A stretch of DNA of 48,755 nt from a bacterium (GTDB lineage Bacteria; Electryoneota; RPQS01). This document shows, piece after piece, positions 7,308-39,662 of this stretch. The stretch covers positions 1 through 48,755 of the forward strand of contig JAPKYT010000077.1 of NCBI GenBank assembly GCA_026394155.1, read 5' to 3'. How positions within the stretch are numbered: position 1 is the first letter of the stretch; each line of letters opens with the position of its first letter. The position numbers and the translations under genes were made by a program. A model generated the notes under the pieces. The model saw nothing but the letters and a program-made list of their open reading frames with translations. It searched no databases and was not told the DNA's origin.

Positions 7308-7467
7308 GTATTTGTGCGAATTTTGATTATAACTAAGTGTTGTCTATCTTGTTAAAAGAAAAGTATGGGATTCTTTCATGATTTCGGGCTCCACTTTCGG
7401 CCTTGTGCGTATAAAGACTTGTGGCACTTGCCGTGGTAGTTGGCTAACGGTCAACATCATCGTGCGC

Positions 7468-8727: not shown

Positions 8728-8765
8728 TCTTTCTCCCTCCGTTTACGGGGGGACGAAAGGGGGGT
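8728..8765 (+). repeat. C/G-run palindromic repeat, copy A
   Basis: TCTTTCTCCCTCCG followed by a short loop, GGGGGGACGAAAGGGGGGT. It starts directly after the TGA of the outer-membrane factor gene. Its reverse complement matches copy B (32075-32113) in the pattern ACCCCCCTTTCRTCCCCCCG...CGGAGGG. Likely a REP-like mRNA hairpin between operon genes. Confidence 0.65.
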
Positions 8766-8808
8766 CCGGCGCGAGAGTAGGGCGAAAGAACTCACTCCAA
8801 GATTGCTT

Positions 8809-21381: not shown

Positions 21382-23721
21382 CTAACGTTTGCTCTTGATC
21401 GCCAGTGCAATCTTCTCAGCCGTAATCGGCATAGACTTGATGCGAATTCCCAGAGCATTCTCGACGGCGTTGGCGATCATCGGCGCGGCCGGAATCATGG
21501 TGTGCTCGCCCACGCCGCGCGCGCCGTAGGGCCCGTCGGGCTGAGCCACTTCGACAAGAATCGGTATCACTCTCTCGGGAACGTCCATCGCCGTGGGAAT
21601 CTTGTAGTCCGTGAAGTTCGGATTGAGCAGTCGTCCCTTCGCATCAAAGCGCATGTCTTCGTACAGCGCCGTCGCGATGCCCTGAACAAGGCCTCCCACC
21701 ACTTGATCCCTGACCAGTCCCGGATTGATCGCCTTCCCGACGTCCACCGCCAACGCGACTCGCGGTATCCGCACGCGGCCGGTTTCCTTGTCAATCTCGA
21801 TCTCGACCGCCGCGGCCCCGACCGTGTAGTGAACATTGGGTTTTCCGCCCTGACTGGTTTCCGCATCGGAGAGCGCCGACGAGAACTCGGGCATGAACAT
21901 CCCCCGCCCCACAATCGGTCCTCCGCGGTACGTCCCATCCTTCATCATGATTCCGTTGATGGCGAAATCGCGCAGCGGCAGAGCGAAATCCGCTACGCTG
22001 CGGGATCGTACCGTCTCGCTCTCAAGATAGAGATCCTCCCGCTTCTGCCCCAGAGCCCGTTCCACAAGTTCGAGAATCTGCTCTCGACAATCCTCGGCGG
22101 CGCGTTTCACGGCGTTCCCGGTCCCCCATGTAATGTGCGAGGCCACCGTTTGCCATTCATAAGGATTGCGGTCTGTGTCCGGCAGCTCGACGCGGATTTT
22201 CGAGAGTGGAACCGTCAGCACTTCAGCCGCGATTTGCGCCATTACCGTCTGAAAACCCTGTCCGATCTCCATCGCCGAAACGAGAACGTTCAGGCTGCCG
22301 TCCTCGTTGAACTTGATGAAAGCGGTGGACGAGGCGTTGGGCGGCATGGCCGGGGCTTTCCAGAAACAGGCGAACCCCTTGCCTCTGACGGTCTTGGGAT
22401 TCTCGGATTGCTCCTTCTTGCTCCACTCGATGGCACGCGCCGCTTTGTCAATGCACTCGATCAGGCCGTTGGGATTCATCTTGCTGCCGTAGGTCAGAGG
22501 GTCGCCCTCTTGGATCGCATTGCGCCGGCGGAACTCGACCGGATCAAGCCCGAGTTTCTTCGCGGTTTCATTGATGTGCGATTCCAAACCGAAGAGAAAT
22601 TCCGAATAGCCGAAACCGCGATAGGGTCCGCCGGGAGGCAGATTCGTGTACACACAGCAGGAGTCAATCTTGACGTTCGGAATCCGGTAAGGGCCGGTGG
22701 CGGAAAGCCCGGCGGCGTTGACGACGTTGGCTCCATATTCCACGTAGGCCCCGGCGTCCCAATGGAGAGTCTGTTCGAGAGCGACGATCGCACCGTCCTT
22801 CTTCACCCCGATTTTCGTCTTCGCCGTCAGACCCTGCCGCTGATAGGTGTTGTAGAACTCCTGTGCCCGCGACCAGAGAATCTTCACCGGATTTCCTTGC
22901 ACCGCCGTCGCCAATGCCGCGGCCAGAATCTCCATCGAGACTCCCGCTTTCCCGCCGAATCCTCCGCCCACGAAGGGAGCAATCACGCGCACGTCCTTGT
23001 GCGAAAGTCCCAAGGGTGCAAGCGCTTCGGCGAAAAGATTCCGCTGCGTAAACGGCGATTGCGACGCCGCCCAAACCGTCAGTCTCCCCGAATAATCGAA
23101 AAGGCCGACCGCTCCGTGCGTCTCAATCGCACAATGAGCATACCTCGGCACCGTGTACGTATCTTCGAAAACCAAGTCCGCTTGTTTGAATCCCGCCTCG
23201 ACATCGCCTTTGCGCACTTTTCGCCAGTGGGCGATGTTCGAATTCGCCTGCGGAAAAAACCACGGCACGTGTTTGTAGCTCTTCAAATCAGGATGAATAA
23301 GCAGAGGATGCGGCTTGAGGGCATCTTCCACATTCAAAATCGCCGGCAGCTCGCGATAACGGACCTTGACCAGCTTCGCGGCTTTCTTGGCGGTGACGGG
23401 GTCGCGCGCGATGACGGCTGCCACCTGCTCGCCCACAAAACGCACGCGATCCTGCGCGAAAACGAACCGGTCGTGCATGTACAGCCCGAAGCGGAACGGA
23501 AAGTCTTTTCCGCTGACCACCTTCACCACGCCCGGCATCTGCTCGGCTTTTGCGGTGTCAATGCTCTTGATTTCCGCGTGCGCCAACGGACTTTCGACGA
23601 TTTCCGCATAGAGCAAGCCCGGCCCGAAATCGAGGTCGTCCACAAACTGCGCCGCGCCGGTGATCTTCGGCTTGCCGTCAATCCGGATCTCCTCATGGCC
23701 CACGAATTTCAATCCGTTCAT
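21382..23721 (-). CDS. Molybdenum hydroxylase, molybdopterin-binding large subunit
   Basis: ATG 23721 (MNGLKFVGHEEIRIDGKPKI) is preceded by GAAGGTG and overlaps the stop of the FeS gene as ATGA, so I use it instead of the ORF-track start; 779 residues. It is a xanthine-dehydrogenase-family large subunit: GKPKITGAAQFVDD (N-terminal a/b hammerhead), FVGGGFGGK, RGFGYSE, GQGFQTV and the C-terminal GARGVGEH with the catalytic Glu. The active-site loop reads GGPYRGFG, not the Cys-containing loop of CO dehydrogenase form I, so CO oxidation is unlikely. It hydroxylates an unknown, probably N-heterocyclic or aldehyde, substrate in the cytoplasm. Last gene of the operon. Confidence 0.92.
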   Translation of the reverse strand: MNGLKFVGHEEIRIDGKPKITGAAQFVDDLDFGPGLLYAEIVESPLAHAEIKSIDTAKAEQMPGVVKVVSGKDFPFRFGLYMHDRFVFAQDRVRFVGEQVAAVIARDPVTAKKAAKLVKVRYRELPAILNVEDALKPHPLLIHPDLKSYKHVPWFFPQANSNIAHWRKVRKGDVEAGFKQADLVFEDTYTVPRYAHCAIETHGAVGLFDYSGRLTVWAASQSPFTQRNLFAEALAPLGLSHKDVRVIAPFVGGGFGGKAGVSMEILAAALATAVQGNPVKILWSRAQEFYNTYQRQGLTAKTKIGVKKDGAIVALEQTLHWDAGAYVEYGANVVNAAGLSATGPYRIPNVKIDSCCVYTNLPPGGPYRGFGYSEFLFGLESHINETAKKLGLDPVEFRRRNAIQEGDPLTYGSKMNPNGLIECIDKAARAIEWSKKEQSENPKTVRGKGFACFWKAPAMPPNASSTAFIKFNEDGSLNVLVSAMEIGQGFQTVMAQIAAEVLTVPLSKIRVELPDTDRNPYEWQTVASHITWGTGNAVKRAAEDCREQILELVERALGQKREDLYLESETVRSRSVADFALPLRDFAINGIMMKDGTYRGGPIVGRGMFMPEFSSALSDAETSQGGKPNVHYTVGAAAVEIEIDKETGRVRIPRVALAVDVGKAINPGLVRDQVVGGLVQGIATALYEDMRFDAKGRLLNPNFTDYKIPTAMDVPERVIPILVEVAQPDGPYGARGVGEHTMIPAAPMIANAVENALGIRIKSMPITAEKIALAIKSKR

Positions 23722-24224
23722 GATCGCACCTTCTTGCCAAGTCTTTCTCTCCCGGGAGGTGTCAGTGCATTGTTGACGTTGGCTATGGCCTCCACGATCG
23801 GCAAGTATCCCGTGCAGCGGCACAGATTGCCGGAAATCGCTTCCTTGATCTCGTCGCCACTGGGCTTGGGATTTCGCTCCAACAACTCTGTAGCGGCAAG
23901 AATGACTCCCGGCGCGCAGAAGCCGCACTGAAAAGAGTTGTGTTCAAGAAATGATTGTTGCAGCGGCGTCATCTGCCCGTCCTTCATCAGCCCCTCGAGA
24001 GTGGTGAGGCGCTGCCCATCGGCCTCAACAGCCAGCACTATGCAACTGCGGACGGTCTTTCCGTTCATCAGCACCGTGCAGGTGCCGCAGTCGCCGCGGT
24101 CGCAGCCGCACTTGGGACTTTTCACACCAAGCTTGTCGCGCAGCACTTCCAGCAGGACTTCTTGTGCGGCGATCTCAAGTGTGATCTTCCGGTCATTGAG
24201 GACGAAAGAGAGTTTCTTCTTCAT
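23718..24224 (-). CDS. Molybdenum hydroxylase [2Fe-2S] subunit
   Basis: A 168-residue electron-transfer subunit. The plant-type [2Fe-2S] site is CGCDRGDCGTC...C (about 38-60), and the second, four-helix cluster domain has CGFCAPG and NLCRCTGY (about 99-140). Both clusters appear complete. ATG 24224 has GGAGA upstream. It passes electrons from the molybdenum centre to the FAD subunit encoded just upstream; the order FAD, FeS, Mo is the coxMSL order. Confidence 0.95.
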   Translation of the reverse strand: MKKKLSFVLNDRKITLEIAAQEVLLEVLRDKLGVKSPKCGCDRGDCGTCTVLMNGKTVRSCIVLAVEADGQRLTTLEGLMKDGQMTPLQQSFLEHNSFQCGFCAPGVILAATELLERNPKPSGDEIKEAISGNLCRCTGYLPIVEAIANVNNALTPPGRERLGKKVRS

Positions 24225-24248
24225 GGCAGTGTTCTCCTTTCCTCAACG

Positions 24249-25136
24249 CTAAATCAAGTTCACGCCGTATTCCGGCCCATTTCCGGAAAATCTGCTCGCG
24301 GCGGCCCGAATTCCGCGCGCGAACATCACCTGACACATGTGGGATCGGTACTCTTTAGTAGCGCGAATATCCGTGATGGGCGAGATCAAGCCGGGAATCA
24401 GCGCCTGACATTTCGCGATGAGTTCGTCGCTGAGGTGTTGTCCGTTTAACAGCCTTTCGATTTTAGAAGCTCGGACCGGAACCGGTGAAACGGCACCCAA
24501 AGCGACACGGTATTGCTTTCCCGGCAGCGCGAGAATCAGCACGCTGGCTTGCGCCAAGTCTTCGCCCGAATACCGGCCCAGCTTGACGTAACAGCCCGCG
24601 TGCCTTCGTGCGGGCAACGGGATCTCAATCGCTGTAACCAGTTCGGCTTTCTTGATGTCCGTTCTCTTGTTGCCCTTGAACCATTTGGCTGCGAGAACTT
24701 TGCGTTTGCCTTTCGACCCGCGAACGAGGATCAATGCTTCATAAGCGGCCAGCAGCGGTCCGCTGTCGGCGCACGCCACCGCCGAGCAGATGTTGCCGGC
24801 CATCGTGGCACGGTTGCGGATTCCCACCGATCCAACCGTCTTCGCCACTTCCGCGATCACCGGAAATCGCGATTGAATCACTCTCGAATCAAGAAGTTCG
24901 CTGAACGTCACGGCCGCGCCGATGGTCAGCACTCCGTTCTTGTAGGTAATTCCGCTCAGTTCCTTGATCCCCTTGATATCAATGACCGCGTCAGGTTGGT
25001 CAATCTCTTCTTTAAGATTGTTGATCAAGTCGGTGCCACCCGCCAGAACCGCAGGTTTCTTGTGCTTCGAGAGAAGCCTGACCGCCTCTCGCACCGACGA
25101 TGGTTTGAAATATTCAAATTCAGAAAGGATCGGCAT
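24249..25136 (-). CDS. Molybdenum hydroxylase FAD-binding subunit
   Basis: A 295-residue FAD subunit of the CoxM/XdhB family. FAD-pyrophosphate motifs are visible: AVLAGGTDLINNLK (about 29-42) and the TMAGNICSA loop (about 110-120), followed by a CO-dehydrogenase flavoprotein C-terminal domain (about 185-290). ATG 25136 follows AAGGAGAG. It sits 24 bp before the FeS subunit and is the first of the three. Confidence 0.93.
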   Translation of the reverse strand: MPILSEFEYFKPSSVREAVRLLSKHKKPAVLAGGTDLINNLKEEIDQPDAVIDIKGIKELSGITYKNGVLTIGAAVTFSELLDSRVIQSRFPVIAEVAKTVGSVGIRNRATMAGNICSAVACADSGPLLAAYEALILVRGSKGKRKVLAAKWFKGNKRTDIKKAELVTAIEIPLPARRHAGCYVKLGRYSGEDLAQASVLILALPGKQYRVALGAVSPVPVRASKIERLLNGQHLSDELIAKCQALIPGLISPITDIRATKEYRSHMCQVMFARGIRAAASRFSGNGPEYGVNLI

Positions 25137-25171
25137 GTTCTCTCCTTCTCTTCTTCACGAATGCGGAAACA

Positions 25172-26539
25172 TCAAATGGAGTTTTTCCGCGGCGGCACAA
25201 ATCCCGTTCCGGCTTCGAACACGCCGGTGGATTTGAAGCGATGATGATAACTGAGGTTGAGGGGAATGATTCCCGCCAGCGCTGCACCGGGCTCCTGCAG
25301 CCTGAGCGCGCGCCAGATGCGCAGGGCTACGGAGCTTCTTGAATAGAACCGGGACTGAACCCAGTGGAGTCCATTTTGGAGAGTCTCGGGACTCATCTGC
25401 TTGGGCTGGAAAACAACATGGGCAAAGTCGTACTTCCGCCAGTCCCTATCGAAGATCCTGCCCTCCGCATCCAGTTCCGCAAAGAGTTGTGTCCCGGGCA
25501 GGGGCGTGAGGATCGCGGCAGTCAGCAAATCAATTCTCGCCTGATAGGCAAAGTCAAGGGTTTGCTCAAAAACATCCGGGGTATCACCGTCCAATCCGAA
25601 CATGACCGCTGCGATGACGGCAATTCCCGCCCGGTGAATCTTTTCGATTGCGCGGCGGTAATCCACTCCCCGGTTGATGTGCTTGCGGGTGAGTTTCAGA
25701 TTCTCCTGTGACAGCGATTCGAAACCGATGAACGCCATTCGGCAGCCGGCCGCCGCCGCCAGGCGCAGCAGCTCATCATCGTTAGCGAGGCCGATGCTGG
25801 CCTGAGTCGCCCATCGTTTCTTGAGCGGAATCATTTTCGCGAAAAGCTCTTTCGCGAAGCTGGAATCACCGATGAGATTATCATCCATGAAAGCGACGTG
25901 CCGCCCCAGTTGCTTGAGTTCCTCGATGACCTCATCCACCGGACGGATACGATAGCGGTAATTGCTGAAGGCGGCGACCGAGCAGAAGGTGCATCGAAAA
26001 CAGCAGCCGCGTGAAGCCTGCAGTGAATCCGGCACTAAATAAGCCGATTGCCTGATCAGGCTCCGATTAGGAATCGGCAAGCCTTTCAGATCAATCGGCT
26101 CACTCTTGTAAAACGGCTTGAGCTTGCCCGCGACGAAATCCTCGATCATGCGGGGCACGTTGTTTTCCGCCTCGCCGATGCAGATCGAATCGGCGTGCTG
26201 GATCGCTTCCTCCGGCATGAACGTGGCATGGTAGCCGCCCAAGATAACGGGTTTGCCCTTTTCCTTGCGAAAGCGGTCCGCGATTTCATACGCCCACGGC
26301 GCACAGAAGGTCATAAAAGAAAGTCCGATAAGATCGGCATCGGTATCGAAATCAACCGGTTCAACGTCCTCGTCAATGATCCGGGTCTCCACATAGGGCG
26401 GCATGGCAGCGGCAACATAGAGGCTCGGAAGCATGGAGAAACGTAAGGCTCGGGTCTTGCGGTTGGGCGGCCTCTCGTGGGTCGCACGCAAATCCGGGAC
26501 CGTGGGAACGATCAGAAGGAATTTCAGCTTATCTCTCAA
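25172..26539 (-). CDS. B12-binding radical SAM protein
   Basis: A 455-residue protein if read from TTG 26539, which has GGAGG at ideal spacing; the ORF-track ATG at 26611 has no RBS and adds a non-conserved tail. Residues about 5-140 are a cobalamin-binding-like Rossmann domain (LIVPTVPDLR ... GLSFMTFCAPWAYEI ... VILGGYHATFMPEEA). The radical SAM domain follows with SRGCCFRCTFCSVAAF (CX3CX2C cluster, about 175-185), AFMDDNLIGD and IGFESLSQENL. The C-terminal part resembles the DUF4070-type extension. Such enzymes do B12-dependent methylations or rearrangements; its substrate is unknown. It lies 35 bp before the FAD subunit gene in the same operon. Confidence 0.85.
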   Translation of the reverse strand: MRDKLKFLLIVPTVPDLRATHERPPNRKTRALRFSMLPSLYVAAAMPPYVETRIIDEDVEPVDFDTDADLIGLSFMTFCAPWAYEIADRFRKEKGKPVILGGYHATFMPEEAIQHADSICIGEAENNVPRMIEDFVAGKLKPFYKSEPIDLKGLPIPNRSLIRQSAYLVPDSLQASRGCCFRCTFCSVAAFSNYRYRIRPVDEVIEELKQLGRHVAFMDDNLIGDSSFAKELFAKMIPLKKRWATQASIGLANDDELLRLAAAAGCRMAFIGFESLSQENLKLTRKHINRGVDYRRAIEKIHRAGIAVIAAVMFGLDGDTPDVFEQTLDFAYQARIDLLTAAILTPLPGTQLFAELDAEGRIFDRDWRKYDFAHVVFQPKQMSPETLQNGLHWVQSRFYSRSSVALRIWRALRLQEPGAALAGIIPLNLSYHHRFKSTGVFEAGTGFVPPRKNSI

Positions 26540-26656
26540 TGTCGCCTCCGAAGGAAATCGGTGTTCATGCCCTGCAAGATAACAGAAGTCTATCCGCCCC
26601 GTCAGGTTCATTCTAAAGCAGGCTCATGTTTTCCTGACTTCTTTGCAGAAGAATCA

Positions 26657-27469
26657 TCATGGCAGTAGCGCCACGATCCGGCACATGGAGGACTCCATCT
26701 CAATGCCGCGCAGTGGAAAGAGTCCGATCCAGCAGCGCTTGTTCGAGAGCTTGTCAATCTCGCCGCCGAGATTCTCGGCATGCACCAGCTTTTTCGGGAA
26801 CAGCTTCAGATGCATGACTTGATAATATTGTTCCGGCGGGAAAAGCTCGTCCCAGTTCTTGCCGTACTGTTTCTTGATTTTCTTTTCGGCTTCCAGAAAG
26901 AGCTTGGGGTGCCAGTTGCGGATGATCGTGTTCATGGGATGATCCGCGCTGCCGCAATCCACTCCGATCCATTTCAGCTTCATCTTCAGTGCCCACTTGT
27001 GGAAGGACGGATCGGGTCCCGGATGCTTGACGAAATAGCGAATCTCATCGGATCGTCGCTGATCCCACGCGTACTTGTGATAGCCGGTGTTGATGATGAG
27101 AATATCCCCCTTCTTAATCTGTACTTTGCGCATGAGAAGCTCGGGCGAGTAGAGGCCGTAGTCTTGCATGTCTTTGGAAATGTCCACCACCACGCCCGCG
27201 CCCACCCACTCGCTCATCGGCACTTGTCCGATGGAGCGGCCGCTGGCGTGAAAGTGAATTTCGCCGTCAATGTGCGTGCCCACGTGATTGCTGGTGGTGA
27301 TGATCTGTCCGTTGGCTCCCTGCCCCATGTGCGCGCCGGCAATGCGCTTGAAGTACTGAATCCCCAGCGGCATGTAGCTCGGCCACGGCGGCGTGTGAAT
27401 GGACAATCGCTGCGTCAGGTCAAACATCTTGACCTTGTTCATGAACTGAAGAAATTGCGCGGTGCTCAT
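26657..27469 (-). CDS. Cyclase-family metal-dependent hydrolase
   Basis: I use ATG 27469 (MSTAQFLQF), which has GGAGG just upstream, giving 270 residues. The cyclase/kynurenine-formamidase family metal site is HVGTHIDGEIHFH (about 88-100), matching HxGTHxDxxxHF. Further conserved parts are KKGDILIINTGYHKY and GVDCGSADHP. Members hydrolyse cyclic or N-formyl amides, for example kynurenine formamidase and isatin hydrolase. In this cluster it is the best candidate for ring opening of an oxidised N-heterocycle or cyclic amide (inference). Length is at the long end of the family because of an extended C-terminal part (about 200-270). Confidence 0.88.
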   Translation of the reverse strand: MSTAQFLQFMNKVKMFDLTQRLSIHTPPWPSYMPLGIQYFKRIAGAHMGQGANGQIITTSNHVGTHIDGEIHFHASGRSIGQVPMSEWVGAGVVVDISKDMQDYGLYSPELLMRKVQIKKGDILIINTGYHKYAWDQRRSDEIRYFVKHPGPDPSFHKWALKMKLKWIGVDCGSADHPMNTIIRNWHPKLFLEAEKKIKKQYGKNWDELFPPEQYYQVMHLKLFPKKLVHAENLGGEIDKLSNKRCWIGLFPLRGIEMESSMCRIVALLP

Positions 27470-27653
27470 TCCGCCTCCCATCTATTCTGATTTGTTCTCT
27501 CTTGTGCTTCGTCGCCGTTGTCGATCTCCTGACCGGCAATGGCGGCATCGTGACTCGGGAGAGTCGCAATGCGATCACTCCAGACTCGCGTAGGGCGGCA
27601 CTATCAAAGCGATTCGACACGACAACGTGTGAGTGTCGAAAGCGAACCTCGTG

Positions 27654-28157
27654 CTACCAGTGTATGTCCAGCGTCTCAAGATTGAAACGTGCAGGCCGAC
27701 TCTCATAGTACCTTCCCTCGGAATCTTGGTAGAATCCACGCAGCGTCGCTTCACCCGCGTATCCGACCACATTCTTGAGCTTGGCGGATACTTCGTCCAG
27801 ATCCACTGTGAACTCATGGTAACTACCAGGTTGGAACCTACCTGGTGCCTCTCTGTGACCGAAGGGGAGACTTGGTAGCGTCGCGGTTCGTTGCCCATGT
27901 TGCTCCGCACGAACTCCATACTCGACAAGCCTTACACTAGCTTTCCCTTGGTTGCGCGCACGAACAACAAGCGCATGGGGCGGCAAATCAACGAATTCCC
28001 GCGCTTTCTGGTCTATCTGTAGGGCGAGAGTCTCGACCACAATTTTCTTGCGAGGGTGACGTTTGACAAGAATCGCGATGAGTGCGGCGATCAGTGCGAA
28101 GAAGCCGCTGATGAAAGCACCGATAATAGTTGTATCGCTGTACCACGGCCCAGTCAT
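27654..28157 (-). CDS. Membrane-anchored hypothetical protein
   Basis: A 167-residue protein with one N-terminal transmembrane helix (IIGAFISGFFALIAALIAILV, about 11-31) and a basic KRHPRKK stop-transfer, followed by a beta-rich domain (about 40-165). ATG 28157 follows AGGAGGAG. Codon composition looks less biased than neighbours and 170 bp separate it from the cyclase gene, so it may be an insertion into the operon rather than part of the pathway. No family recognised. Confidence 0.6.
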   Translation of the reverse strand: MTGPWYSDTTIIGAFISGFFALIAALIAILVKRHPRKKIVVETLALQIDQKAREFVDLPPHALVVRARNQGKASVRLVEYGVRAEQHGQRTATLPSLPFGHREAPGRFQPGSYHEFTVDLDEVSAKLKNVVGYAGEATLRGFYQDSEGRYYESRPARFNLETLDIHW

Positions 28158-28196
28158 TCCGATCTCCTCCTAAGAACTTGCTTCCTCGCTGCGCAA

Positions 28197-29648
28197 CTAC
28201 GCGGTGCTCTGTGTTTCGAATCCGCTTGAGAATTGCCCACAGCGGCCGTTTTGTTTTACGACCTTCTCCGCCAACCTCTCATACGCCTTGACAAAGGGCT
28301 CCGCCGGAGCGGAGAGCACGCCCGCGCCCACTTGTCCGATGCCGGGTTTTTTGTGAGCGACTCCGGTGTCAATGAAAGGCAGGATTCCCGTTTCGACAAC
28401 TGTGATGACGTCAATTCCGGTGGGTGTGCCGCGAAAATCCAAGGATGGAATCTGATACGCGCGATTCTCGGCGGCCGTGATTTCGTACATTTGCAGCGTA
28501 TAGTTCAATGCGTCGCGCGCCTGTCCCCCGACAAATTGCACAATCGCCGGAGATGCGGCAATGGCAAAACCGCCAAGTCCGTAGGTTTCCGCGATCGCGC
28601 TGTCGCCGATGTCGGGATTGGCATCGTCCTTCGTGAAACCGGGGAAAAAGAGCGCATCGGGCACGGGGGCGGGGCCGGTGAACCATTGACCGCCGGTTCC
28701 GGAAAGCTGCACTCCGAAATCCGTTCCGTTGCGCGCCATCGCCACCACGATGCTGCTGTTCGCAATACCGCGTGCGGCATCCAAAGATGCTTTGGCGGCG
28801 GCCATGGAAAGATTGAGGAAGAAATGATCGTTGCCGCCGATGAAATCTAAAACGCTGGCAGCAGCGTCTCTTTCACTCGTTCGTACGACCTGCGGCGCAA
28901 GCGCGCGATAGAGCAGCGAGGTGGCCGCTCGATTGCGATTGTGAACCTCATCTCCCATGTGCAAGGCTTGAGCGATGATCGCTTTCAAATCAATCCGTTC
29001 AACGCGCTCCACCGCTTTCCTGAGAGCCGGATACAACACCCGTTCCATCCATTTCAGCCGTGCGATCACCTCATCGTTGAACGCCCCATAGCGCAGCACC
29101 TTTCCCAAACCCTCATTCATCGTGGCATAGGACGCATTGCCAAACTCATCATTCTTTACGATGAAAACTGGCATGGATGCGGAAATGATTCCCGCCATCG
29201 GCCCGACAGCGTTGTGCTCATGGCACGGAGCAAACTCGATTTCTCCCGACGCGGCCAGTCGCTCCGCGTCTTCCGGATTCCCTGCAAGTCCTTCGTAGAT
29301 GAGCGCGCCGATTATCGCGCCGCGCATCGGCCCGCACATCCGCTTCCACTCAATCGGTGGCCCCGCATGAAGCAGCAAATTCTCCTTCATGCGTGGGATA
29401 GTGTCCAGAGCCTTGCCCAATCCGACCAGCATCGGTTTGCCGCTCAAGATTCGCTCGACCGCCGCTCGATTCGCATCTTCAATCTGTTCGCGCTTCTCCG
29501 CAATGATGCTCGCAGCCTGTGGCGAGACGCTGAGCGGCGGCATCCAATCCACCTGCACGGCCTTCACGTTGCGCGCGTCCAGCGTGTCCTTGAAGGAACG
29601 CAGTCCGATGTTGATAACTTTCAGTTCTTGATCAAACAGGTGTGTCAT
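28197..29648 (-). CDS. DUF1116 protein, oxamate carbamoyltransferase-type subunit (YlbE/AllG-like)
   Basis: Read from ATG 29648 (MTHLFDQELKVINIGLRSF) it has 483 residues, the usual size for DUF1116/YlbE. This start overlaps the end of fdrA by 17 bp, consistent with translational coupling; there is no strong RBS. Characteristic parts are VQVDWMPP (about 30-40), RGAIIGALIYEG, FAPCHEHNAVGPMAGI and NGTDFGVQLSGTGGQWFTGPA. In E. coli YlbE (AllG) works with FdrA (AllF) and YlbF (AllH) as an oxamate carbamoyltransferase producing carbamoyl phosphate and oxamate from oxalurate. The same three-gene set is here, so a related carbamoyl transfer is likely. Confidence 0.88.
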   Translation of the reverse strand: MTHLFDQELKVINIGLRSFKDTLDARNVKAVQVDWMPPLSVSPQAASIIAEKREQIEDANRAAVERILSGKPMLVGLGKALDTIPRMKENLLLHAGPPIEWKRMCGPMRGAIIGALIYEGLAGNPEDAERLAASGEIEFAPCHEHNAVGPMAGIISASMPVFIVKNDEFGNASYATMNEGLGKVLRYGAFNDEVIARLKWMERVLYPALRKAVERVERIDLKAIIAQALHMGDEVHNRNRAATSLLYRALAPQVVRTSERDAAASVLDFIGGNDHFFLNLSMAAAKASLDAARGIANSSIVVAMARNGTDFGVQLSGTGGQWFTGPAPVPDALFFPGFTKDDANPDIGDSAIAETYGLGGFAIAASPAIVQFVGGQARDALNYTLQMYEITAAENRAYQIPSLDFRGTPTGIDVITVVETGILPFIDTGVAHKKPGIGQVGAGVLSAPAEPFVKAYERLAEKVVKQNGRCGQFSSGFETQSTA

Positions 29649-31233
29649 GAGAGCAATCGCTCTGTTCAATCGGGTGTACAATGAATGCGGTCAGCAAACA
29701 TGCGGCCGCGTTGGATTCCGCCACAATCACACCGGCGTCGCGCAGACCTCGCACGACTTCCGCTCGATTCTGCGGGTCCTTGTCCGTTCCGGTAACGGAG
29801 CACACCATCGGTAAGTACCGCTGCCTTTGGGAGGTGGATTTCCGCGCCGACGTGATCGCGGGAACAATCTCCTTCAGCGGATCAGGGTTTGCGCCGTATC
29901 CTAACACGATGTCAAACAGCACGACCGCCGTTTCCGGATCGGCTGCTTCCTCGATAATCCGCCGGTCCCGCAGCGAATAGTCAATCATCGGATGAGGTCT
30001 GCCCACGGTAAATTCGTCCGCGCCCAAGTCCACCAGAGTATGTTTGACGCTCTTCAGCGAGTTCTTGAGCTGCTGCGATTTTCCGGTGGGCGCGTTCGAG
30101 TAGATTTCATCGAGATCGTCTCTTAGAAGAAGTTGTGCCTCATAACAGAACGTTCCGCCGCTGAAAAGACCTCGCACGTTCTTCTGTTGGGCCTGCAGCT
30201 TCCGTGCCTCGGTCGCACCAATCACCCGTAGGTCATTTCTTAGTCGGGCGAAATAGGTGGTCACGGTCTCGACGGGTTTGCGTTGAGAGAGCGCAGTCGC
30301 CAGCAAGGCGGCTTCGTGAAGTGATCCCGCGGGCAGCATTCCGTGTCGCCGGATGCTGTCGTTCTCTGTGCCCAGAAAAGCCGCCACCACGGGCTTGCCC
30401 AGCGTTCGTGTCACCTTGCCGATCTTCTCCAGAACGCTAAAATGCGGCGGTTTGGAGATCAGCACGATGACACGTGTACTCGGATCTTCCGACAACATGG
30501 CGAGGGCCGCGAGCATCATCAAGCCGCCCACTTCCTCCTTTACGTCGCGGCCGCCGGTTCCGATGGCTTGCGAAATTCCCGCCCCGGCGTTGGAAATCAG
30601 ACAGGACACTTCCTGCAAACCCGTTCCCGCCGCCGCTACGATTCCGATATCTCCTCGATTCACCGCATTGGCGAAAGCCAAAGGCACACCGTTGATGATC
30701 GCCGTTCCGCAGTCAGGGCCCATCATCAGCAGGTGGTGCTCCATTGCATATTCTTTGAGAGCGATTTCACGTTCAAGCGGCACATTGTCCGAAAACAGCA
30801 TCACATGCAAGCCGTGCCGCAAAGCTCTCATCGCCTCACCGGCCGCATGCTTGCCGGCCACCGAAATCAGAGTCATGTTGGCATCCGGCATGAGATGCAG
30901 CGCCGTTTCGATGGAGCGGGGTAGAGGAGCGAGACTGGAATCGGCACGTGTGCGCACGGACTTCAAGATGGACTCCGCTTCCGACAGCGCGCGCTCGGCC
31001 AGCAAAGCGTCCTCAGCCTTCACGGCGATCAAGAGATCGGCGTCTGTGCTCGCGCGGAATTCCTCCACGGTCAACCCCGCGGCCTCGAGTATCGCACGAT
31101 TCTCTCGGGTCCCCATCACGATGGCGCTGTCCAGCAAGCCCGACAATTCGCGCAGCTTTCGCGCCGCCGTCATGAGCGTCAACGAATCGTAGTATTCGCC
31201 CTTCTTGACAATACCCTTGACCATCATGTCCAT
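29632..31233 (-). CDS. fdrA: FdrA, acyl-CoA-synthetase-like carbamoyltransferase subunit
   Basis: About 533 residues from ATG 31233; ATG 31227 or 31224 are possible alternatives, all close to the DUF2877 stop. It aligns by eye with E. coli FdrA along its length: VKKGEYYDSLTLMTAARKL, LPDANMTLISVAGKHAA, VMLFSDNVPLEREI, LMMGPDCGTAIINGVPLAFAN, IGTGGRDVKEEVGG, TVGRPHPMIDYSLRD and VTGTDKDPQ. These are succinyl-CoA-synthetase-like CoA-binding and ligase folds. By family knowledge it is the AllF subunit of oxamate carbamoyltransferase. It is flanked by its two partner subunits (DUF2877 upstream, DUF1116 downstream) with overlapping ends, a coherent complex. Confidence 0.92.
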   Translation of the reverse strand: MDMMVKGIVKKGEYYDSLTLMTAARKLRELSGLLDSAIVMGTRENRAILEAAGLTVEEFRASTDADLLIAVKAEDALLAERALSEAESILKSVRTRADSSLAPLPRSIETALHLMPDANMTLISVAGKHAAGEAMRALRHGLHVMLFSDNVPLEREIALKEYAMEHHLLMMGPDCGTAIINGVPLAFANAVNRGDIGIVAAAGTGLQEVSCLISNAGAGISQAIGTGGRDVKEEVGGLMMLAALAMLSEDPSTRVIVLISKPPHFSVLEKIGKVTRTLGKPVVAAFLGTENDSIRRHGMLPAGSLHEAALLATALSQRKPVETVTTYFARLRNDLRVIGATEARKLQAQQKNVRGLFSGGTFCYEAQLLLRDDLDEIYSNAPTGKSQQLKNSLKSVKHTLVDLGADEFTVGRPHPMIDYSLRDRRIIEEAADPETAVVLFDIVLGYGANPDPLKEIVPAITSARKSTSQRQRYLPMVCSVTGTDKDPQNRAEVVRGLRDAGVIVAESNAAACLLTAFIVHPIEQSDCSHDTPV

Positions 31234-32072
31234 GCGCTCAGATGATGAAGAGAGTCGCACTTCTCCAGTTCGAAGACAAGCCCCGCGGCCAGATCGCTGC
31301 CGGAGGTCTCACCGAAAGAGGCCAGTTGTTGAGCACTTTCGGCGATTTCGTTTTCGGCGGCCCGCAGGATGGCCGTCAACACGCGCTGAAGCCTCTCGAA
31401 AACGCGGCCTTCTTGGGCGCAGCGCAGAAAGGCCGTCGAAAAGGGATTCGCGCCTATGGCCTCGCGACCAATATCTTCGATAATGCTTGATGTGTTCTCC
31501 TCAAAAAGCGCTTGTCGAAGATGCAAGGCAATGAGGATCCCGCAAATGAAATCGTCACCACTGGGTGTCAATCCCCAACCGAGTCCTTTGATCTTGTGGA
31601 CGCCTTCGACGTAACGGCCGTCCTGCAACAGCCGCAGACCGTCAGAAAACCGTTCCGCGAGCGCGGTCTCGAAATCCCATGATGCGGCCTGAGCGCTTCC
31701 GCTCTCGACCAAGAAGATCAGGCTGCGCGGCGGAGCTGTTTCTTGAAGCGCCGCTCGAAAACATGCAAGGCCGCTCGCAATCAGACTGGGAGGGCTTTCC
31801 GGCGGGATCGCGATGGCGGAATCATAGCGTCGTTCCTCCGTCAAGGTGAATTCGGTTTCGCCGACCCGGATGAAATCGTCGCCAACAAGAACCTGCGGAC
31901 CGTCCAGAATCTCAAGGTCTCGCAGCACGACATTCAAGGGTCCCGCTCCCACTGATGTATCCACAAGAGCGAGCAGGTGCTCGCCGCAGACAAAGTTGAC
32001 GGCTCTTTTGAACCGCGAGTGCAGGCGGTAAGCCCCGCAGGCAATCCGGTCTCCATAGCTGAGAAATCGAAT
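31224..32072 (-). CDS. DUF2877 protein (YlbF/AllH-like subunit)
   Basis: DUF2877 homology begins near IRFLSYGDRIACGAYRLHSR and runs to the end (KGLGWGLTPSGDDFICGILIAL is the signature). No ATG, GTG or TTG lies at this point. The nearest start consistent with a strong GGAGGG ribosome binding site is an ATT at 32072 (283 codons). The ORF-track start at 32198 would read through a palindromic repeat and overlap the preceding gene by 77 bp. So either a rare ATT start is used, or the repeat/RBS region replaced the original start, or a base is wrong. In E. coli YlbF (AllH) is the third subunit of oxamate carbamoyltransferase. Confidence 0.75.
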   Translation of the reverse strand: MRFLSYGDRIACGAYRLHSRFKRAVNFVCGEHLLALVDTSVGAGPLNVVLRDLEILDGPQVLVGDDFIRVGETEFTLTEERRYDSAIAIPPESPPSLIASGLACFRAALQETAPPRSLIFLVESGSAQAASWDFETALAERFSDGLRLLQDGRYVEGVHKIKGLGWGLTPSGDDFICGILIALHLRQALFEENTSSIIEDIGREAIGANPFSTAFLRCAQEGRVFERLQRVLTAILRAAENEIAESAQQLASFGETSGSDLAAGLVFELEKCDSLHHLSAWT

Positions 32073-32074
32073 CG

Positions 32075-32113
32075 TCTTTCCCTCCGCCTCAGCGGGGGGA
32101 TGAAAGGGGGGTA
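32075..32113 (-). repeat. C/G-run palindromic repeat, copy B
   Basis: On the minus strand it reads ACCCCCCTTTCATCCCCCCG, a short loop, then CGGAGGGAAAGA, matching copy A base for base outside the loop except for R and spacing changes. It begins 8 nt after the stop of the DUF35 gene and its last GGAGGG forms the apparent ribosome binding site of the DUF2877 gene. Confidence 0.65.
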
Positions 32114-32121
32114 GATTCCGA

Positions 32122-32469
32122 TTAGGCCTCGTAGAACACCATCCCGTAATACTGGTTGTACTCGTCCTTCCGCACAACTTCCACATTGGCTCGAACATGC
32201 ATGCCGATGGTGGGCCTCTCGATGCTGAGTTGTCCGGTAATGCGGCTGCCGTCCTCGAGTTCCACGATTCCCAACGACAGGAAAACGGTGCTGAAGTCGG
32301 AAGGCGGATTGAAAAGATGGGTGAACGTCAACAACTTCCCCTTCTTCGGCAGAGGAACGATGTCGAATTCGTTGTGGTCGTTCTCGTGACAGTTGCGGCA
32401 GATAGTCCGGTAGGGATATTGCACGTGGCCGCATCGCTTGCACTTGTAGGCGTAGATATTCCGTTCCAT
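32122..32469 (-). CDS. Zn-ribbon OB-fold protein, DUF35 family
   Basis: 115 residues from ATG 32469, with GAGGG upstream; the TTG used by the ORF track lies inside the thiolase stop region. The N-terminal rubredoxin-like zinc ribbon has CKRCGHVQYPYRTICRNCH (about 9-27), followed by an OB-fold (LLTFTHLF...ELEDGSRITGQLS...GMHVRANVEVV). DUF35 proteins are obligate partners of thiolase-like enzymes, where they form the substrate-CoA channel. Its gene directly follows the thiolase-like gene, as in archaeal thiolases and the steroid aldolases Ltp2-ChsH2. Confidence 0.9.
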   Translation of the reverse strand: MERNIYAYKCKRCGHVQYPYRTICRNCHENDHNEFDIVPLPKKGKLLTFTHLFNPPSDFSTVFLSLGIVELEDGSRITGQLSIERPTIGMHVRANVEVVRKDEYNQYYGMVFYEA

Positions 32470-32471
32470 AG

Positions 32472-33647
32472 TCAACCCTCGCGGATGAAGGTCAGACAGA
32501 CCACATTGTTGCCGAAGCCGCCGAAATTGCAGGTGAATCCCACCTTCGCGTTCTTGACCTGCCGCTTGCCGGCTTCACTCCAAAGCTGAAGCACGATTTC
32601 GTGCGCTTGTCCCACTCCAGTTGCGCCGACCGGATGGCCTTTCGCCTTCAAACCGCCGGACGGATTGATGGGCAGCTTGCCGCCGATTCTCGTGTAGCCT
32701 TCCTGCAAGGCGACATGTCCTTGCCCTCTTTCAAAGAACCCCGCCTCTTCGCTCTCGACGATTTCTAAAATGGTGAAGGCATCGTGCAGTTCCGCCACGT
32801 GAACATCCGCCGGTTTCACGCCGGCCATAGCGAAGGACTTCTTCGCGGCTTCGCGCACCGCGAGAAGGTCGGTGGGGTCTTTTCGATCATGCACCGCGTG
32901 CGTGTCGGTGGCTTGTCCCACACCGGCCAGCCGCACCATCGGTTTGCCGGTCTTCTTGGCAAGGTCCGCCGTGGTCAAAATCAGACAGGCCCCACCGTCC
33001 GAAACCGGGCACATATCGTAGTATCTCAGGGGATCCGCCACGATGGGATTGTTGGTTGAGGCATCCGGCGAATCGAGAATTCCCTCCAGCGTGATTTCCT
33101 CGTGCAAATGGGCGTAGAAATTGTCCATCGCATGTTTGTGATTCTTCACCGCCACCATGGCCAAATGCCGCGAGGTGACTCCGTATTTCTCCATGTACAA
33201 CCGCGCGAACATTCCCGCCAGCGATGGCAGCGTGACCCCGTAAATGTATTCGGCCATGGGGTGTGTGAGCGTGGCGACGAAATCGGTGGCTTCGAGATTG
33301 TTGACTTCGCGCATTCGTTCCGCGCCGATGACCATCACCGTGTCGTGCATCCCCGACGCCACCGCCAAGAAGCCCTGTTTGATCGCCGATGCGCCGGAAG
33401 CCGGGCCGTTCTCAATCGTCTCGGCTCCGGCCGGTGTCAGACTCAAATTGTCCACCACCGCGCTGGCCAAACCGCTCTGATGATTGACCCGCGCGGCTCC
33501 CATGTTGGCCACGTAAAGCTGGTCAATGCTCTTGATCCCGCTCTCTCTCATCGCCATGAGGCCGGGATAGGCGGCGATTTCCACCAGCGGGTATTCCAGC
33601 CGCGTGAAACTGGTGATGCCGATTCCCGCCACGTAAACGTCACGCAT
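32472..33647 (-). CDS. Thiolase-fold protein lacking the nucleophilic Cys
   Basis: A 391-residue thiolase-superfamily protein of the SCP-x/lipid-transfer type. The position where thiolases carry the nucleophile (CASG) reads ENGPASGASAI, with Pro replacing Cys. The C-terminal catalytic-region motifs are kept: ELHDAFTILEIV and NPSGGLKAKGHPVGATG. A Cys at CNFGGFG corresponds to the second thiolase Cys region. Loss of the nucleophile argues against ordinary Claisen thiolysis; Cys-less relatives with DUF35 partners are retro-aldolases (Ltp2). A C-C cleaving aldolase is the working idea. Start and stop overlap or abut its neighbours, showing tight coupling with the GNAT-like and DUF35 genes. Confidence 0.85.
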   Translation of the reverse strand: MRDVYVAGIGITSFTRLEYPLVEIAAYPGLMAMRESGIKSIDQLYVANMGAARVNHQSGLASAVVDNLSLTPAGAETIENGPASGASAIKQGFLAVASGMHDTVMVIGAERMREVNNLEATDFVATLTHPMAEYIYGVTLPSLAGMFARLYMEKYGVTSRHLAMVAVKNHKHAMDNFYAHLHEEITLEGILDSPDASTNNPIVADPLRYYDMCPVSDGGACLILTTADLAKKTGKPMVRLAGVGQATDTHAVHDRKDPTDLLAVREAAKKSFAMAGVKPADVHVAELHDAFTILEIVESEEAGFFERGQGHVALQEGYTRIGGKLPINPSGGLKAKGHPVGATGVGQAHEIVLQLWSEAGKRQVKNAKVGFTCNFGGFGNNVVCLTFIREG

Positions 33648-34395
33648 CGCGCAGCCCTCCCAACTTCTTGCGCTGTTCGAGGAGCGCCGTGGCCGTGGAA
33701 TCGTAGAGCGAGCGGGTGGCCGCCAGGAGATCCACCGGCGGTCGCGGCGGATCGGTGGGGGGCAGGATCGCTTGTTGGGCCTTCTTCAAGAGCTGCTCGG
33801 GAACCGGTCTGCGTCCCACGATCAAGGTGTCGCGGGCCGCGTCGTAGAGTTCCCTGGTGAGCGACCACGAGGGACAGCCCCCCAATTCGTGCGGAACATG
33901 AAATCGCTTTTCCAACTTGTACTCGATCATCCAACGCCGGAAGCCGATCGGTGATTCGGCCACGATCAGAACTTCCTTCTGCCCGAGGATGTCCAGATGA
34001 TATTCCATCTTGGCGGCGAAGGCGTGCGCTCCGACCCGCAGTCCCCGGCGCAGAGCCAGAGTGTGGTAGGAGATCCCGACGTCCTTGTTGGCCATGCGCC
34101 CGTTCACCACCGCCACCAGCTCGCCGTCTATCTGCGCCGCCAAGACGTACTCGTCCTGAACCCGGTAGGTGTAATACCCGAGAAGTTCGGCGTACACGCG
34201 CGAAGCCACAATGTCATAGAAGTCGCGCTCGACGTGCATCAGCGGTTCCACGTGCGGCAGAATTTCCGGAATTTCCTCGCGCGTCACCTGACGGATCACC
34301 AACTGTTCGCCGCCGGCCAAGGTCATGTACTTGGGCGGATATTCCGGAAGTGGTGTGTCTGTCGGCCGGAGGATTTTCTCCAAATCAATAGACAT
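33640..34395 (-). CDS. GNAT-like acyltransferase-fold protein
   Basis: A 251-residue soluble protein. Residues about 30-185 have GNAT-like order: LVIRQVTREEIPEIL (beta1-alpha1), VLAAQIDGELVAVVNGRM (beta2-3), ISYHTLALRRGLRVGAHAFAAKMEYHLDIL (beta4-alpha3) and VLIVAESPIGFRRWMIEYKLEK (beta5-alpha4). The usual Q/RxxGxG/A acetyl-CoA loop appears as RRGLRVGA. The last 60 residues are a Pro-rich linker and a helix. It is the first gene of the cluster, overlaps the thiolase-like gene by 8 bp, and may acylate the substrate or sense CoA esters; both are guesses. ATG 34395 has AAGGGATAGG upstream. Confidence 0.6.
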   Translation of the reverse strand: MSIDLEKILRPTDTPLPEYPPKYMTLAGGEQLVIRQVTREEIPEILPHVEPLMHVERDFYDIVASRVYAELLGYYTYRVQDEYVLAAQIDGELVAVVNGRMANKDVGISYHTLALRRGLRVGAHAFAAKMEYHLDILGQKEVLIVAESPIGFRRWMIEYKLEKRFHVPHELGGCPSWSLTRELYDAARDTLIVGRRPVPEQLLKKAQQAILPPTDPPRPPVDLLAATRSLYDSTATALLEQRKKLGGLRDA

Positions 34396-35858: not shown

Positions 35859-36257
35859 ATGAGAGATCTCGCCCACATTTTCAGAGCCTTGGCCGATGAG
35901 ACGCGGCTCAAGATGCTGGGACTGATGTTGAAACACCGCGAGCTGTGCGTCTGCGACTTCGTGAAAGTGCTGGAGATTACTCAGTCCAAAGCCTCGCGTC
36001 ATCTCCGCTACCTGCTTCATGCGGGTCTGCTCAGCGACCGCCGCGACGGTGTCTGGGCACACTACCGCATCGCGGACGACTTGCCGCACTCCGAGCGCGC
36101 GGCGGTTCTTGACATGGTGGAAAAACTCCTGCAGGCACGAGGCCTTGACCAATTGGAGAACTCTCTGCGCCAATGGCTGCGGGAAAAACAGGGGCGCGCG
36201 GAATCGGCTTGCACCCTCGGCACGGATGTCACAGACGGCGCGGGAGCACTTTCGTGA
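35859..36257 (+). CDS. arsR: ArsR-family arsenic-responsive repressor
   Basis: I use ATG 35859 with AAGAGG upstream; 132 residues. Winged helix: [16 protein letters not shown] (about 8-23), metal-sensing ELCVCDFV (about 27-34; the classical ELCVCDL As(III)/Sb(III) site in helix alpha3), recognition helix [18 protein letters not shown] (about 41-58) and wing [12 protein letters not shown]. Binding of As(III) to the CxC Cys residues would release the operator seen in the promoter. The C-terminal 35 residues ([17 protein letters not shown]...) are an extension. Its stop overlaps the GTG start of the permease by 4 bp (GTGA). Confidence 0.93.
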
Positions 36258-37321
36258 GTGAACACTCCCCAAGCGTTGCCCGCCGCCTGTCCTTCTTGGA
36301 CCGCTACCTGACCCTGTGGATCTTTGCGGCGATGGCGGCAGGCGTGGGATTGGGATTTGTGTTTCCGGGCGTTGTGCCGTTTCTGGATCGCTTCAGCGTG
36401 GGCACGACCTCGATCCCGATTGCCATTGGCTTGATCCTCATGATGTATCCTCCTCTGGCGAAAGTGCGCTACGAGGAACTGGGAGAAGTCTTTCGCAATT
36501 GGCGGATTCTCAGCCTTTCGCTAATTCAGAATTGGGTAATTGGCCCGATTCTGATGTTTGCGCTGGCGTTGATTTTCTTGCGCGGTTACCCTGAGTACAT
36601 GGTGGGACTGATTCTGATCGGCCTTGCGCGCTGCATTGCCATGGTCATTGTCTGGAATGAGCTGGCCAAGGGCGACACCGAATACGCGGCCGGGCTGGTA
36701 GCTTTCAATTCCATTTTTCAGGTGCTGTTCTACTCCGTCTATGCGTATGTCTTTATCACGCTACTTCCGCCGCTCTTTGGCCTCTCGGGCACGGTAGTTC
36801 ATATCACCATCGGACAGATTGCCAAGAGTGTGTTCATCTACCTTGGCCTGCCTTTCATCGCCGGATTCCTGACGCGGTTCGTTCTGATCCGCATCAAGGA
36901 CAAGGAATGGTACCACCGGAAGTTCATTCCTAAGATCAGCCCCGTCACGCTGATCGCGCTGCTGTTCACGATTGTCGTGATGTTCTCCCTGAAGGGGGAC
37001 GCAATTCTGACCCTGCCCTGGGACGTGGTACGGATCGCCATCCCCCTGCTGATCTACTTCGTACTCATGTTCTTCGTGTCCTTCTGGATGGGCAGAAAAA
37101 TCGGCGCGGATTACTCAAAAACCGCGACGCTTTCCTTCACGGCCGCCTCGAACAACTTCGAGTTGGCCATTGCCGTGGCCATCGCGGTCTTCGGCGTGCA
37201 CTCGGGAGCCGCCTTCGCGGCGGTCATCGGCCCGCTGGTGGAAGTTCCTGTCCTCATCGGTCTGGTCAACGTGGCGCTGCGGTTCAGGAGAAAGTACTTC
37301 TCGACCGCCGAGCCGGGTTAA
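36254..37321 (+). CDS. acr3: ACR3-family arsenite efflux permease
   Basis: GTG 36254 overlaps the arsR stop; this start gives 355 residues (the ORF-track start is inside arsR). About ten hydrophobic segments. The conserved ACR3 motif with the essential Cys is [19 protein letters not shown] (about 128-146), and the second conserved helix reads [22 protein letters not shown] (about 294-315). It extrudes As(OH)3 through the inner membrane. The last residues, STAEPG, and the stop codon are supplied by a dispersed repeat and the edge of a miniature element, so the native C-terminus has been replaced, probably without loss of function because the final helix is complete. Confidence 0.93.
37304..37318 (+). 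repeat. Partial copy of GCCGAGCCGGGT repeat in acr3 end
   Basis: ACCGCCGAGCCGGGT is identical to the start of the two full repeat cores at 37358 and 37526 and lies inside the acr3 coding end. It is followed directly by TAA and the left end of the miniature element. Confidence 0.6.
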
Positions 37322-37484
37322 GAGCCTATCTTGAAATAAGGAAACGCGACCCTTTTTCCGCCGAGCCGGGTCAGTCTTCGCCACCCGGCCGGAATCGGGA
37401 TTGCGCAAATCGAGAACAGTGTAAGAGTTGAGTCATCTGTTCAACTCTCCGAGTGCCGCCTTCACTTTATTTCGAGATAGGCCC
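37322..37484. mobile_element. Miniature inverted-repeat element (MITE-like), 163 bp
   Basis: Left end GAGCCTATCTTGAAATAA; right end TTATTTCGAGATAGGCCC is its inverted copy (two or three mismatches). TAA flanks both sides (37319-37321 and 37485-37487), consistent with a 3-bp target duplication of the kind made by some IS5-group elements. It has no coding capacity and contains a GCCGGGT/ACCCGGC hairpin core. It sits between acr3 and the DUF318 permease gene within the ars operon. Confidence 0.65.
37358..37399 (+). repeat. Dispersed hairpin repeat, copy 1
   Basis: CCGCCGAGCCGGGTCAGTCT... to ...GGCCGGAATCGGG, with internal stem GCCGGGT/ACCCGGC. About 42 bp, nearly identical to copies at 37526 and 47048 (reverse). 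Confidence 0.75.
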
Positions 37485-37487
37485 TAA

Positions 37488-37567
37488 GAGCCTATCTTGA
37501 AATAACGAAAGGGCTGGTTTCTTGACCGCCGAGCCGGGTCAGTCTTCGCCACCCGGCCGGAATCGGG
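37488..37567 (+). repeat. Second, left-half copy of the MITE plus repeat core
   Basis: GAGCCTATCTTGAAATAA recurs right after the first element's TAA, followed by a different 20-bp spacer and the repeat core (37526-37567) identical to copy 1. The right inverted end is missing, so it is a truncated or nested copy; the permease gene starts 85 bp later. Confidence 0.65.
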
Positions 37568-37652
37568 TCGCCCAGATGGAGTAAGAGCCGTGCCTGAAGG
37601 GCAACGCGCCGACCCTCGTGACCTCATGTGAAATCCCGAACATCGAGTCCGT

Positions 37653-38951: not shown

Positions 38952-38966
38952 GCAAGGAGGCATGCC

Positions 38967-39224
38967 ATGCTGAAAATACAAGTGCTCGGAACCGGTTGTC
39001 CCAAGTGCAAAAAGCTGGCGGAAAACGCAGAAATGGCCGCCAATGATCTCGGTCTCGACTATGTCCTCGAAAAAGTCACGGACATCAACGAGATCATGAA
39101 ATTCAAGGTGTGGCAAACGCCGGGCTTGGTGGTGGACGGAGAGGTGAGATCCGCCGGAAAAGTGCTGACGATGGAGGAGATCAAGAAGATTCTCGAAACC
39201 GCCGCGCGGACTCCATCCGCTTAG
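38967..39224 (+). CDS. Small thioredoxin-like redox protein (CPKC)
   Basis: An 85-residue cytoplasmic thioredoxin-fold protein of the redox-active disulfide protein 2/MTH895 type: VLGTGCPKCKKLAENAEMAA (active site CPKC, about 10-13), cis-Pro loop WQTPGLVVDGEV (about 49-60). ATG 38967 has an AGGAGG RBS. These proteins are encoded next to DUF318 permeases and probably reduce the permease or its metalloid substrate. 15 bp after the permease gene. Confidence 0.92.
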   Translation: MLKIQVLGTGCPKCKKLAENAEMAANDLGLDYVLEKVTDINEIMKFKVWQTPGLVVDGEVRSAGKVLTMEEIKKILETAARTPSA

Positions 39225-39258
39225 GATGTCCAGACCTGAGAGTCACGAGAGGTGTGTC

Positions 39259-39657: not shown

Positions 39658-39662
39658 AGAGA

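Follow-up and report, generated by a model that had tools for sequence, protein, structure and literature searches.

The 48,755-nt contig JAPKYT010000077.1, analysed over its full length and referred to below as the window, comes from a 2.4-Mb metagenome-assembled genome (MAG) that is 88% complete. At positions 21382-34395 it carries a cluster of 12 open reading frames (ORFs), all on the minus strand, in which a three-subunit molybdenum (Mo) hydroxylase and a cyclase-family hydrolase are encoded together with the three subunits of an AllF-AllG-AllH transcarbamylase (AllFGH, with AllF also named FdrA). The cluster is a real, conserved and horizontally spread catabolic operon found mostly in uncultured bacteria, and we consider it probable, at roughly 60%, that this operon serves energy-conserving oxidative degradation of pyrimidines ending in a phosphorolysis. 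A first-pass annotation, made from the letters of the window, had described twelve same-strand genes, many with overlapping ends, and both features were seen in the ORFs: the order of transcription is X251, thiolase, DUF35, AllH, FdrA, AllG, a 167-residue protein, cyclase, radical SAM, MoM, MoS, MoL, and gene ends overlap at X251/thiolase, AllH/FdrA, FdrA/AllG, and MoS/MoL. The families that it had named (Mo-hydroxylase, cyclase, DUF2877-FdrA-DUF1116, thiolase, DUF35, and radical SAM) were all confirmed by profile searches (Table 1).

The first-pass annotation had proposed a search of other genomes for DUF1116, FdrA and DUF2877 beside xanthine dehydrogenase (XDH)-family and cyclase-family genes. 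About 40 loci, spread over many phyla, were found to carry the core, consisting of the Mo-hydroxylase, the PF04199 cyclase and AllFGH, and the gene order is often kept. Scanning named genome contigs with AllG as seed yielded 29 loci, and AllH-FdrA-AllG-cyclase-MoM-MoS-MoL, in this or a permuted order, was present in Zixibacteria, Elusimicrobia, Bdellovibrionales, KSB1, Aminicenantes, Bipolaricaulota, and Spirochaetes, with a divergent version in one archaeal MAG. The nearest relative in the search was a 'candidate division KSB1' MAG (locus L023). With the cyclase alone as seed, 15 matches were found in 296 genomes from the phylum to which the Spirochaete query belongs, and AllG was adjacent in all 13 that were not cut by a contig end. 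Because the AllG- and cyclase-seeded searches both recover the core in many phyla, the cluster is not a chance association. Its occurrence is patchy (3 of 39 genomes in the window's phylum; 2 of 40 in a second phylum), a distribution that fits horizontal spread.

In the pathway that we infer from protein families, linkage, neighbouring genes and motifs, the Mo-hydroxylase would oxidise C6 of uracil to give barbiturate (with thymine, 5-methylbarbiturate), and the cyclase-family amidohydrolase would open the ring to give ureidomalonate (3-oxo-3-ureidopropionate), an N-acylurea. AllF, AllG and AllH would then convert ureidomalonate and phosphate to malonamate and carbamoyl phosphate, from which a carbamate kinase encoded elsewhere would make ATP. 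An amidase, either malonamidase-E2-like or, in relatives, of the nitrilase family, would release ammonia from malonamate to leave malonate, which would be activated and decarboxylated through a CoA-transferase route (via malonyl-CoA) or, as a guess for the window, by the trio of X251, thiolase and DUF35 proteins. The first-pass annotation had anticipated that an N-heterocycle is hydroxylated, its ring opened and a carbamoyl group transferred so as to form carbamoyl phosphate, and this outline gains support from the conserved co-occurrence and from the neighbours in relatives, while a role for the radical SAM protein and the supposed lack of a carbamate kinase did not stand. The substrate had been left open; our analysis favours uracil or thymine, with malonamate as the acid amide.

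The make-up of the XDH-family enzyme is complete, with Mo, FAD and 2Fe-2S subunits (MoL, MoM, and MoS) all encoded in the cluster. MoL begins at an internal ATG that overlaps the MoS stop codon, giving a protein of 779 residues, and not at the GTG of the 848-residue ORF. It reached none of the equivalog cut-offs for XDH, falling far short (552 vs 780 bits), and, judged by score, is not a xanthine dehydrogenase. At the positions equivalent to Glu802 and Arg880 of xanthine oxidase, residues taken as marks of the purine enzyme, it has Ala and Lys, and the catalytic Glu is retained. The closest solved structure to MoL was the alpha subunit of 4-hydroxybenzoyl-CoA reductase.

The cyclase carries NHVGTHIDGEIHF, a metal motif of the HxGTHxDxxxHF type, and the motif residues were invariant across 23 cyclase sequences. 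A structural model of the protein (predicted local distance difference test, pLDDT, of 87) gave isatin hydrolases as its top Foldseek matches (E 5e-14). The window cyclase has its family (PF04199), fold and metal motif in common with isatin hydrolase and kynurenine formamidase, but structural alignment with the isatin hydrolases gave only 17-20% identity, and its score as a kynurenine formamidase/arylformamidase was 47 bits, far below the NCBIfam equivalog cut-off of 223. As isatin hydrolases open a cyclic amide, the modelled fold would fit a ring-opening role, and the product of barbiturate hydrolysis is ureidomalonate (PMC3758960). PF09663, the family of AtzD/Bar-type barbiturases, matched none of 31 host genomes, a result that is uninformative since no control matched either. 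In one relative (L060:2218-3954, G012), two cyclase domains lie in tandem within a single 579-residue frame.

The E. coli oxamic transcarbamylase AllFGH (FdrA-YlbE-YlbF) interconverts oxalurate plus phosphate and oxamate plus carbamoyl phosphate (PMC11326118). The same three subunit families are encoded together in the window, where FdrA scored 502 bits against an NCBIfam cut-off of 433 and includes CoA-ligase and CoA-binding domains, and where the true start of AllH probably lies inside its ORF. By analogy, the window enzyme may likewise split an N-acylurea with phosphate, yielding carbamoyl phosphate and an acid amide. Its proposed substrate, ureidomalonate, is an N-acylurea like oxalurate and is the next homologue in the series, with one additional CH2. 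In contrast to E. coli, in which AllFGH lies beside allantoin genes, AllFGH in the window lies beside the Mo-hydroxylase and the cyclase, and in some relatives FdrA and AllG are fused in a single protein (L031:3462-6569 and L097:5358-8498), unlike the E. coli complex. The window cluster contains neither the carbamate kinase nor the allantoin genes of an E. coli-type operon. The first-pass annotation was correct that no carbamate kinase is in the window, but the enzyme is not missing, as another contig of the genome encodes a full-length copy (G000:C125:40653-41576, E 4.5e-107). Among genomes outside the window's own phylum, 15 of the 16 that have AllG also encode a full-length carbamate kinase, compared with 26 of the 92 that lack AllG (p 9e-7). 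More distant AllG/FdrA loci (L042, L047, L069, and L074) stand beside a recurrent group of four unannotated families (c24, c28, c34, and c35), possibly a nucleoside-type ABC transporter; a transporter of that type has been reported next to allFGH in nitrifiers (PMC12625717).

Genes linked to the core in relatives bear on the substrate. All 11 linked NCS2 permeases had the Glu-type ENxG signature and none had QNxG, compared with 3 Glu to 3 Gln among unlinked canonical nucleobase-ascorbate transporters (NATs) from a background search (p 0.03, with the small background of n=6). The Gln/Glu of the NAT signature motif governs specificity, and UapA accepts uracil once its Gln is changed to Glu (PMC5972032). 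UraA was the sole solved relative of the L065 permease at E<1e-20; the L062 permease was closer to mammalian SLC23A1, and uracil and urate/xanthine permeases ranked after it. Three unrelated amidase lineages are linked to the core: a nitrilase-family lineage in L025, L026, L029 and L045, another in L060, L067 and L075, and an amidase-signature group. For the L101 amidase, malonamidase E2 (MAE2) came first among PDB matches (E 3e-46), well before GatA. Arg158 of MAE2, which we take to bind the carboxylate of malonamate, is kept in six linked amidases (L101, L070, L094, L095, L098, and L103); in the GatA-like L097 the residue is Ile. Malonate is the product that MAE2 forms from malonamate (PMC8393822), and such an amidase, like the CoA-transferases linked in some loci, would be a natural successor to the proposed AllFGH step.

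The trio that precedes AllFGH is distinctive. X251 had no Pfam match, and its AlphaFold model (pLDDT 79) gave GNAT acetyltransferases as top Foldseek matches (E about 1e-6), in agreement with its earlier description as GNAT-like; these were ordinary GNAT acetyltransferases, and a relationship to malonyl-CoA decarboxylase was not supported, since the search gave that enzyme no special closeness. Orthologues of X251 occur in eleven cluster loci (L031, L061, L062, L064, L065, L073, L100, L101, L103, L104, and L112), and DUF35 adjoins the thiolase in L031, L061, L064, L073, L100, L103, and L112. The thiolase had been called Cys-less, and the nucleophilic Cys is indeed replaced by Pro (ENGPASGASA) in the window and in all four relatives with the N-terminal region available; the window protein has also lost the second Cys motif and has kept the His of HPVGATG. 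A thiolase-fold protein with a DUF35 partner is likewise found in the Ltp2-ChsH2 aldolases and in archaeal thiolase/DUF35 complexes, and Ltp2-type proteins also lack the catalytic Cys, but the window thiolase differs from these in its Cys-to-Pro exchange and in its association with the cluster and with X251, a member of a new family of GNAT fold. CoA-transferases are present in 8 cluster loci, of family I in L027, L045 and L048 and also of family III, and the family III protein of L075 scored best as a CoA:oxalate CoA-transferase. Among 40 cyclase loci, these 8 never coincided with the 12 of X251 type, in which X251 is alone or with thiolase and DUF35 (p 0.04, uncorrected for ancestry). Because the two sets exclude each other, the gene content suggests that the trio stands in for the CoA-transferase. 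C-C cleavage of the remaining acid, put forward in the first-pass annotation, would be a conjectural role for the Cys-less thiolase.

Several observations weigh against pyrimidine degradation as the function of the window cluster. The neighbours that point to the substrate lie in genomes other than the window's: no NCS2 permease was found in its own 88% complete genome, no malonamidase-like amidase was found there beyond one match that is probably of GatA type, and the nitrilase-family gene that stands alone there shares only 23-31% identity with those linked to the core. The permease motif test has a small background. Carbamate kinase is near universal in the window's own phylum and lies near hydantoinase/YgeW genes in some hosts, and both facts confound its co-occurrence with AllG and weaken it as specific proof. 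Near the L072 cluster no XDH-type Mo-hydroxylase was found, and the expected place, between AllG and the cyclase, is taken by a gene for a tungsten-type aldehyde ferredoxin oxidoreductase (L072:10969-12870). The scheme also gives X251, thiolase and DUF35 no more than a guessed role.

Since the core chemistry needs only a ring that yields an N-acylurea or ureido acid, a non-pyrimidine cyclic ureide or imide (for example hydantoin-, isatin- or pterin-like) could be hydroxylated, opened to an N-acylurea and cleaved by AllFGH. The closeness of the cyclase fold to isatin hydrolase and the lack of an NCS2 permease in the window's genome suit such a substrate, yet in relatives the core is linked to nucleobase permeases and to a malonamidase-E2-like amidase, and we regard this explanation as rather unlikely. 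A purine route, in which xanthine formed by the Mo-hydroxylase is opened to 4-ureido-5-imidazolecarboxylate by the cyclase, working as a xanthine amidohydrolase, and AllFGH takes the carbamoyl group as carbamoyl phosphate, would draw on the XDH-family membership of the Mo-hydroxylase and on the known hydrolytic opening of xanthine (the xanthinase pathway, mentioned in PMC12507026). It appears improbable given the XDH score of MoL and its lack of Glu802/Arg880 equivalents, the pyrimidine-type motif of the linked permeases, and the absence of any step for malonamidase-like amidases or CoA-transferases. Some hosts moreover have separate purine-type genes: in Bdellovibrionales, distinct loci near carbamate kinase and hydantoinase carry YgeY and YgeW (L147, G151) or YgeY (L148, G152), so that purine use in these hosts probably does not depend on the cluster. 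The reductive uric acid cluster of E. coli (XdhD, YgfK, SsnA, HyuA, YgeW, and YqeA; PMC12507026) combines a Mo-hydroxylase with transcarbamoylation to carbamoyl phosphate for ATP, as proposed here, but its carbamoyltransferase and hydrolases are unrelated to those of the window, it is reductive and not oxidative, and no YgeW, HyuA or YgfK/PydA-type gene is in the window cluster.

FdrA is homologous to succinyl-CoA synthetase, and its CoA-ligase and CoA-binding domains, its former annotation as an acyl-CoA synthetase, and the nearby thiolase, CoA-transferases and GNAT protein would all suit a role of AllFGH as an acyl-CoA-forming ligase or transferase feeding the thiolase-like protein. We consider this very improbable, because AllFGH has been characterised in one case only, as a transcarbamylase (PMC11326118), because carbamate kinase co-occurs with it, and because some loci have separate CoA-transferases of their own. 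That AllFGH acts on oxalurate within an allantoin cluster, as the identity of its three subunit families with those of E. coli might imply, and that the other genes are unrelated neighbours, is hardly credible: every testable cyclase from the Spirochaete-phylum search adjoins AllG, the Mo-hydroxylase is linked in most loci, and no allantoin genes were seen in the loci that we annotated.

That uracil can be oxidised to barbiturate was already recognised in the 1950s. The oxidative pyrimidine degradation that we prefer has barbiturate, ureidomalonate and malonate in common with the pathway of uracil/thymine dehydrogenase, barbiturase and ureidomalonase (Soong et al.), as far as that pathway is outlined in PMC3758960. 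Relative to that outline, the ring opener would be a PF04199 protein here and is of AtzD/Bar type there, the products would be carbamoyl phosphate and malonamate in place of urea and malonate, and for the initial oxidation the cluster puts forward a specific candidate, the Mo-hydroxylase. We found no assignment of a gene for uracil/thymine dehydrogenase in the literature, in a search that left subscription journals mostly uncovered, and novelty is not proven; the oxidative pathway is known, and the gene set and the phosphorolytic ending appear to be new. More tentatively, the cluster could represent an undescribed ATP-yielding pathway that has moved horizontally among mostly uncultured phyla, with genes for uracil/thymine dehydrogenase, a second and unrelated barbiturase and a ureidomalonate phosphorolase, plus an X251/Cys-less thiolase/DUF35 enzyme that replaces the CoA-transferase for malonate. 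If the pyrimidine reading is right, the cluster would provide candidates for three enzymes at once, would make AllFGH a wider family of N-acylurea phosphorolases, and could allow many uncultured bacteria to draw ATP and nitrogen from RNA bases.

Two genes of the cluster do not appear to belong to the pathway. In the sister species L023 the cyclase, 92% identical to that of the window, is followed directly by MoM with no radical SAM gene, and the place of the 167-residue gene is taken by a different, unrelated gene; both genes are lacking in other loci too, and the radical SAM gene had no match in any of the other cluster loci examined. Since the L023 cyclase adjoins MoM and another gene fills the place of the 167-residue gene, both genes were rejected as pathway members and are best regarded as passengers, contrary to the first-pass annotation, which had included the radical SAM protein. 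Other loci have genes of their own inserted between core genes, encoding an M6 (secreted) peptidase (L023:4191-6659), an uncharacterised 240-residue protein (L023:1197-1916), a Fic protein (L028:5639-6697), and an integrase (L063:5062-6165).

Table 1. Genes of the cluster in the order of transcription, with window positions and supporting matches.
Feature	Position	Strand	Match or remark
X251, 251 residues, GNAT fold	33640..34395	-	new conserved family tied to cluster
Cys-less thiolase-fold protein	32472..33647	-	PRK06064-like
DUF35 partner of thiolase, zinc ribbon and OB fold	32122..32469	-	DUF35 domain pair
AllH (DUF2877) transcarbamylase subunit	31224..32198	-	PF11392, E 2e-23
FdrA/AllF transcarbamylase subunit	29632..31233	-	NCBIfam PRK06091, 502 bits
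AllG (DUF1116) transcarbamylase subunit	28197..29648	-	PF06545, E 7e-100
167-residue membrane-anchored protein	27654..28157	-	no Pfam family; probably passenger
PF04199 cyclase-family hydrolase, ring-opening (proposed barbiturate amidohydrolase)	26657..27481	-	E 2e-31
B12-binding radical SAM protein	25172..26611	-	passenger, not core
MoM, Mo-hydroxylase FAD subunit	24249..25136	-	PF00941, E 5e-48
MoS, Mo-hydroxylase 2Fe-2S subunit	23718..24224	-	PF01799, E 3e-30
MoL, Mo-hydroxylase molybdopterin subunit (proposed uracil/thymine dehydrogenase)	about 21382..23721	-	PF02738/PF20256 (MoCoBD_1/2), E 3e-76, 1e-74

Elsewhere in the window, an SBF-family transporter, an ArsP-type permease, a thioredoxin and a DsbD-like membrane protein are encoded consecutively, directly upstream of the cluster (36173-40364), a row that resembles a gene set for arsenic or for thiol-redox functions. 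Positions 7378-13631 hold a CusCBA-like metal efflux set made up of an outer membrane efflux protein, a CusB/HlyD protein with heavy-metal-binding domains, and an AcrB-type pump. Genes for a DDE transposase and a phage-type integrase lie near the two contig ends (45332-46912 and 1387-2526).

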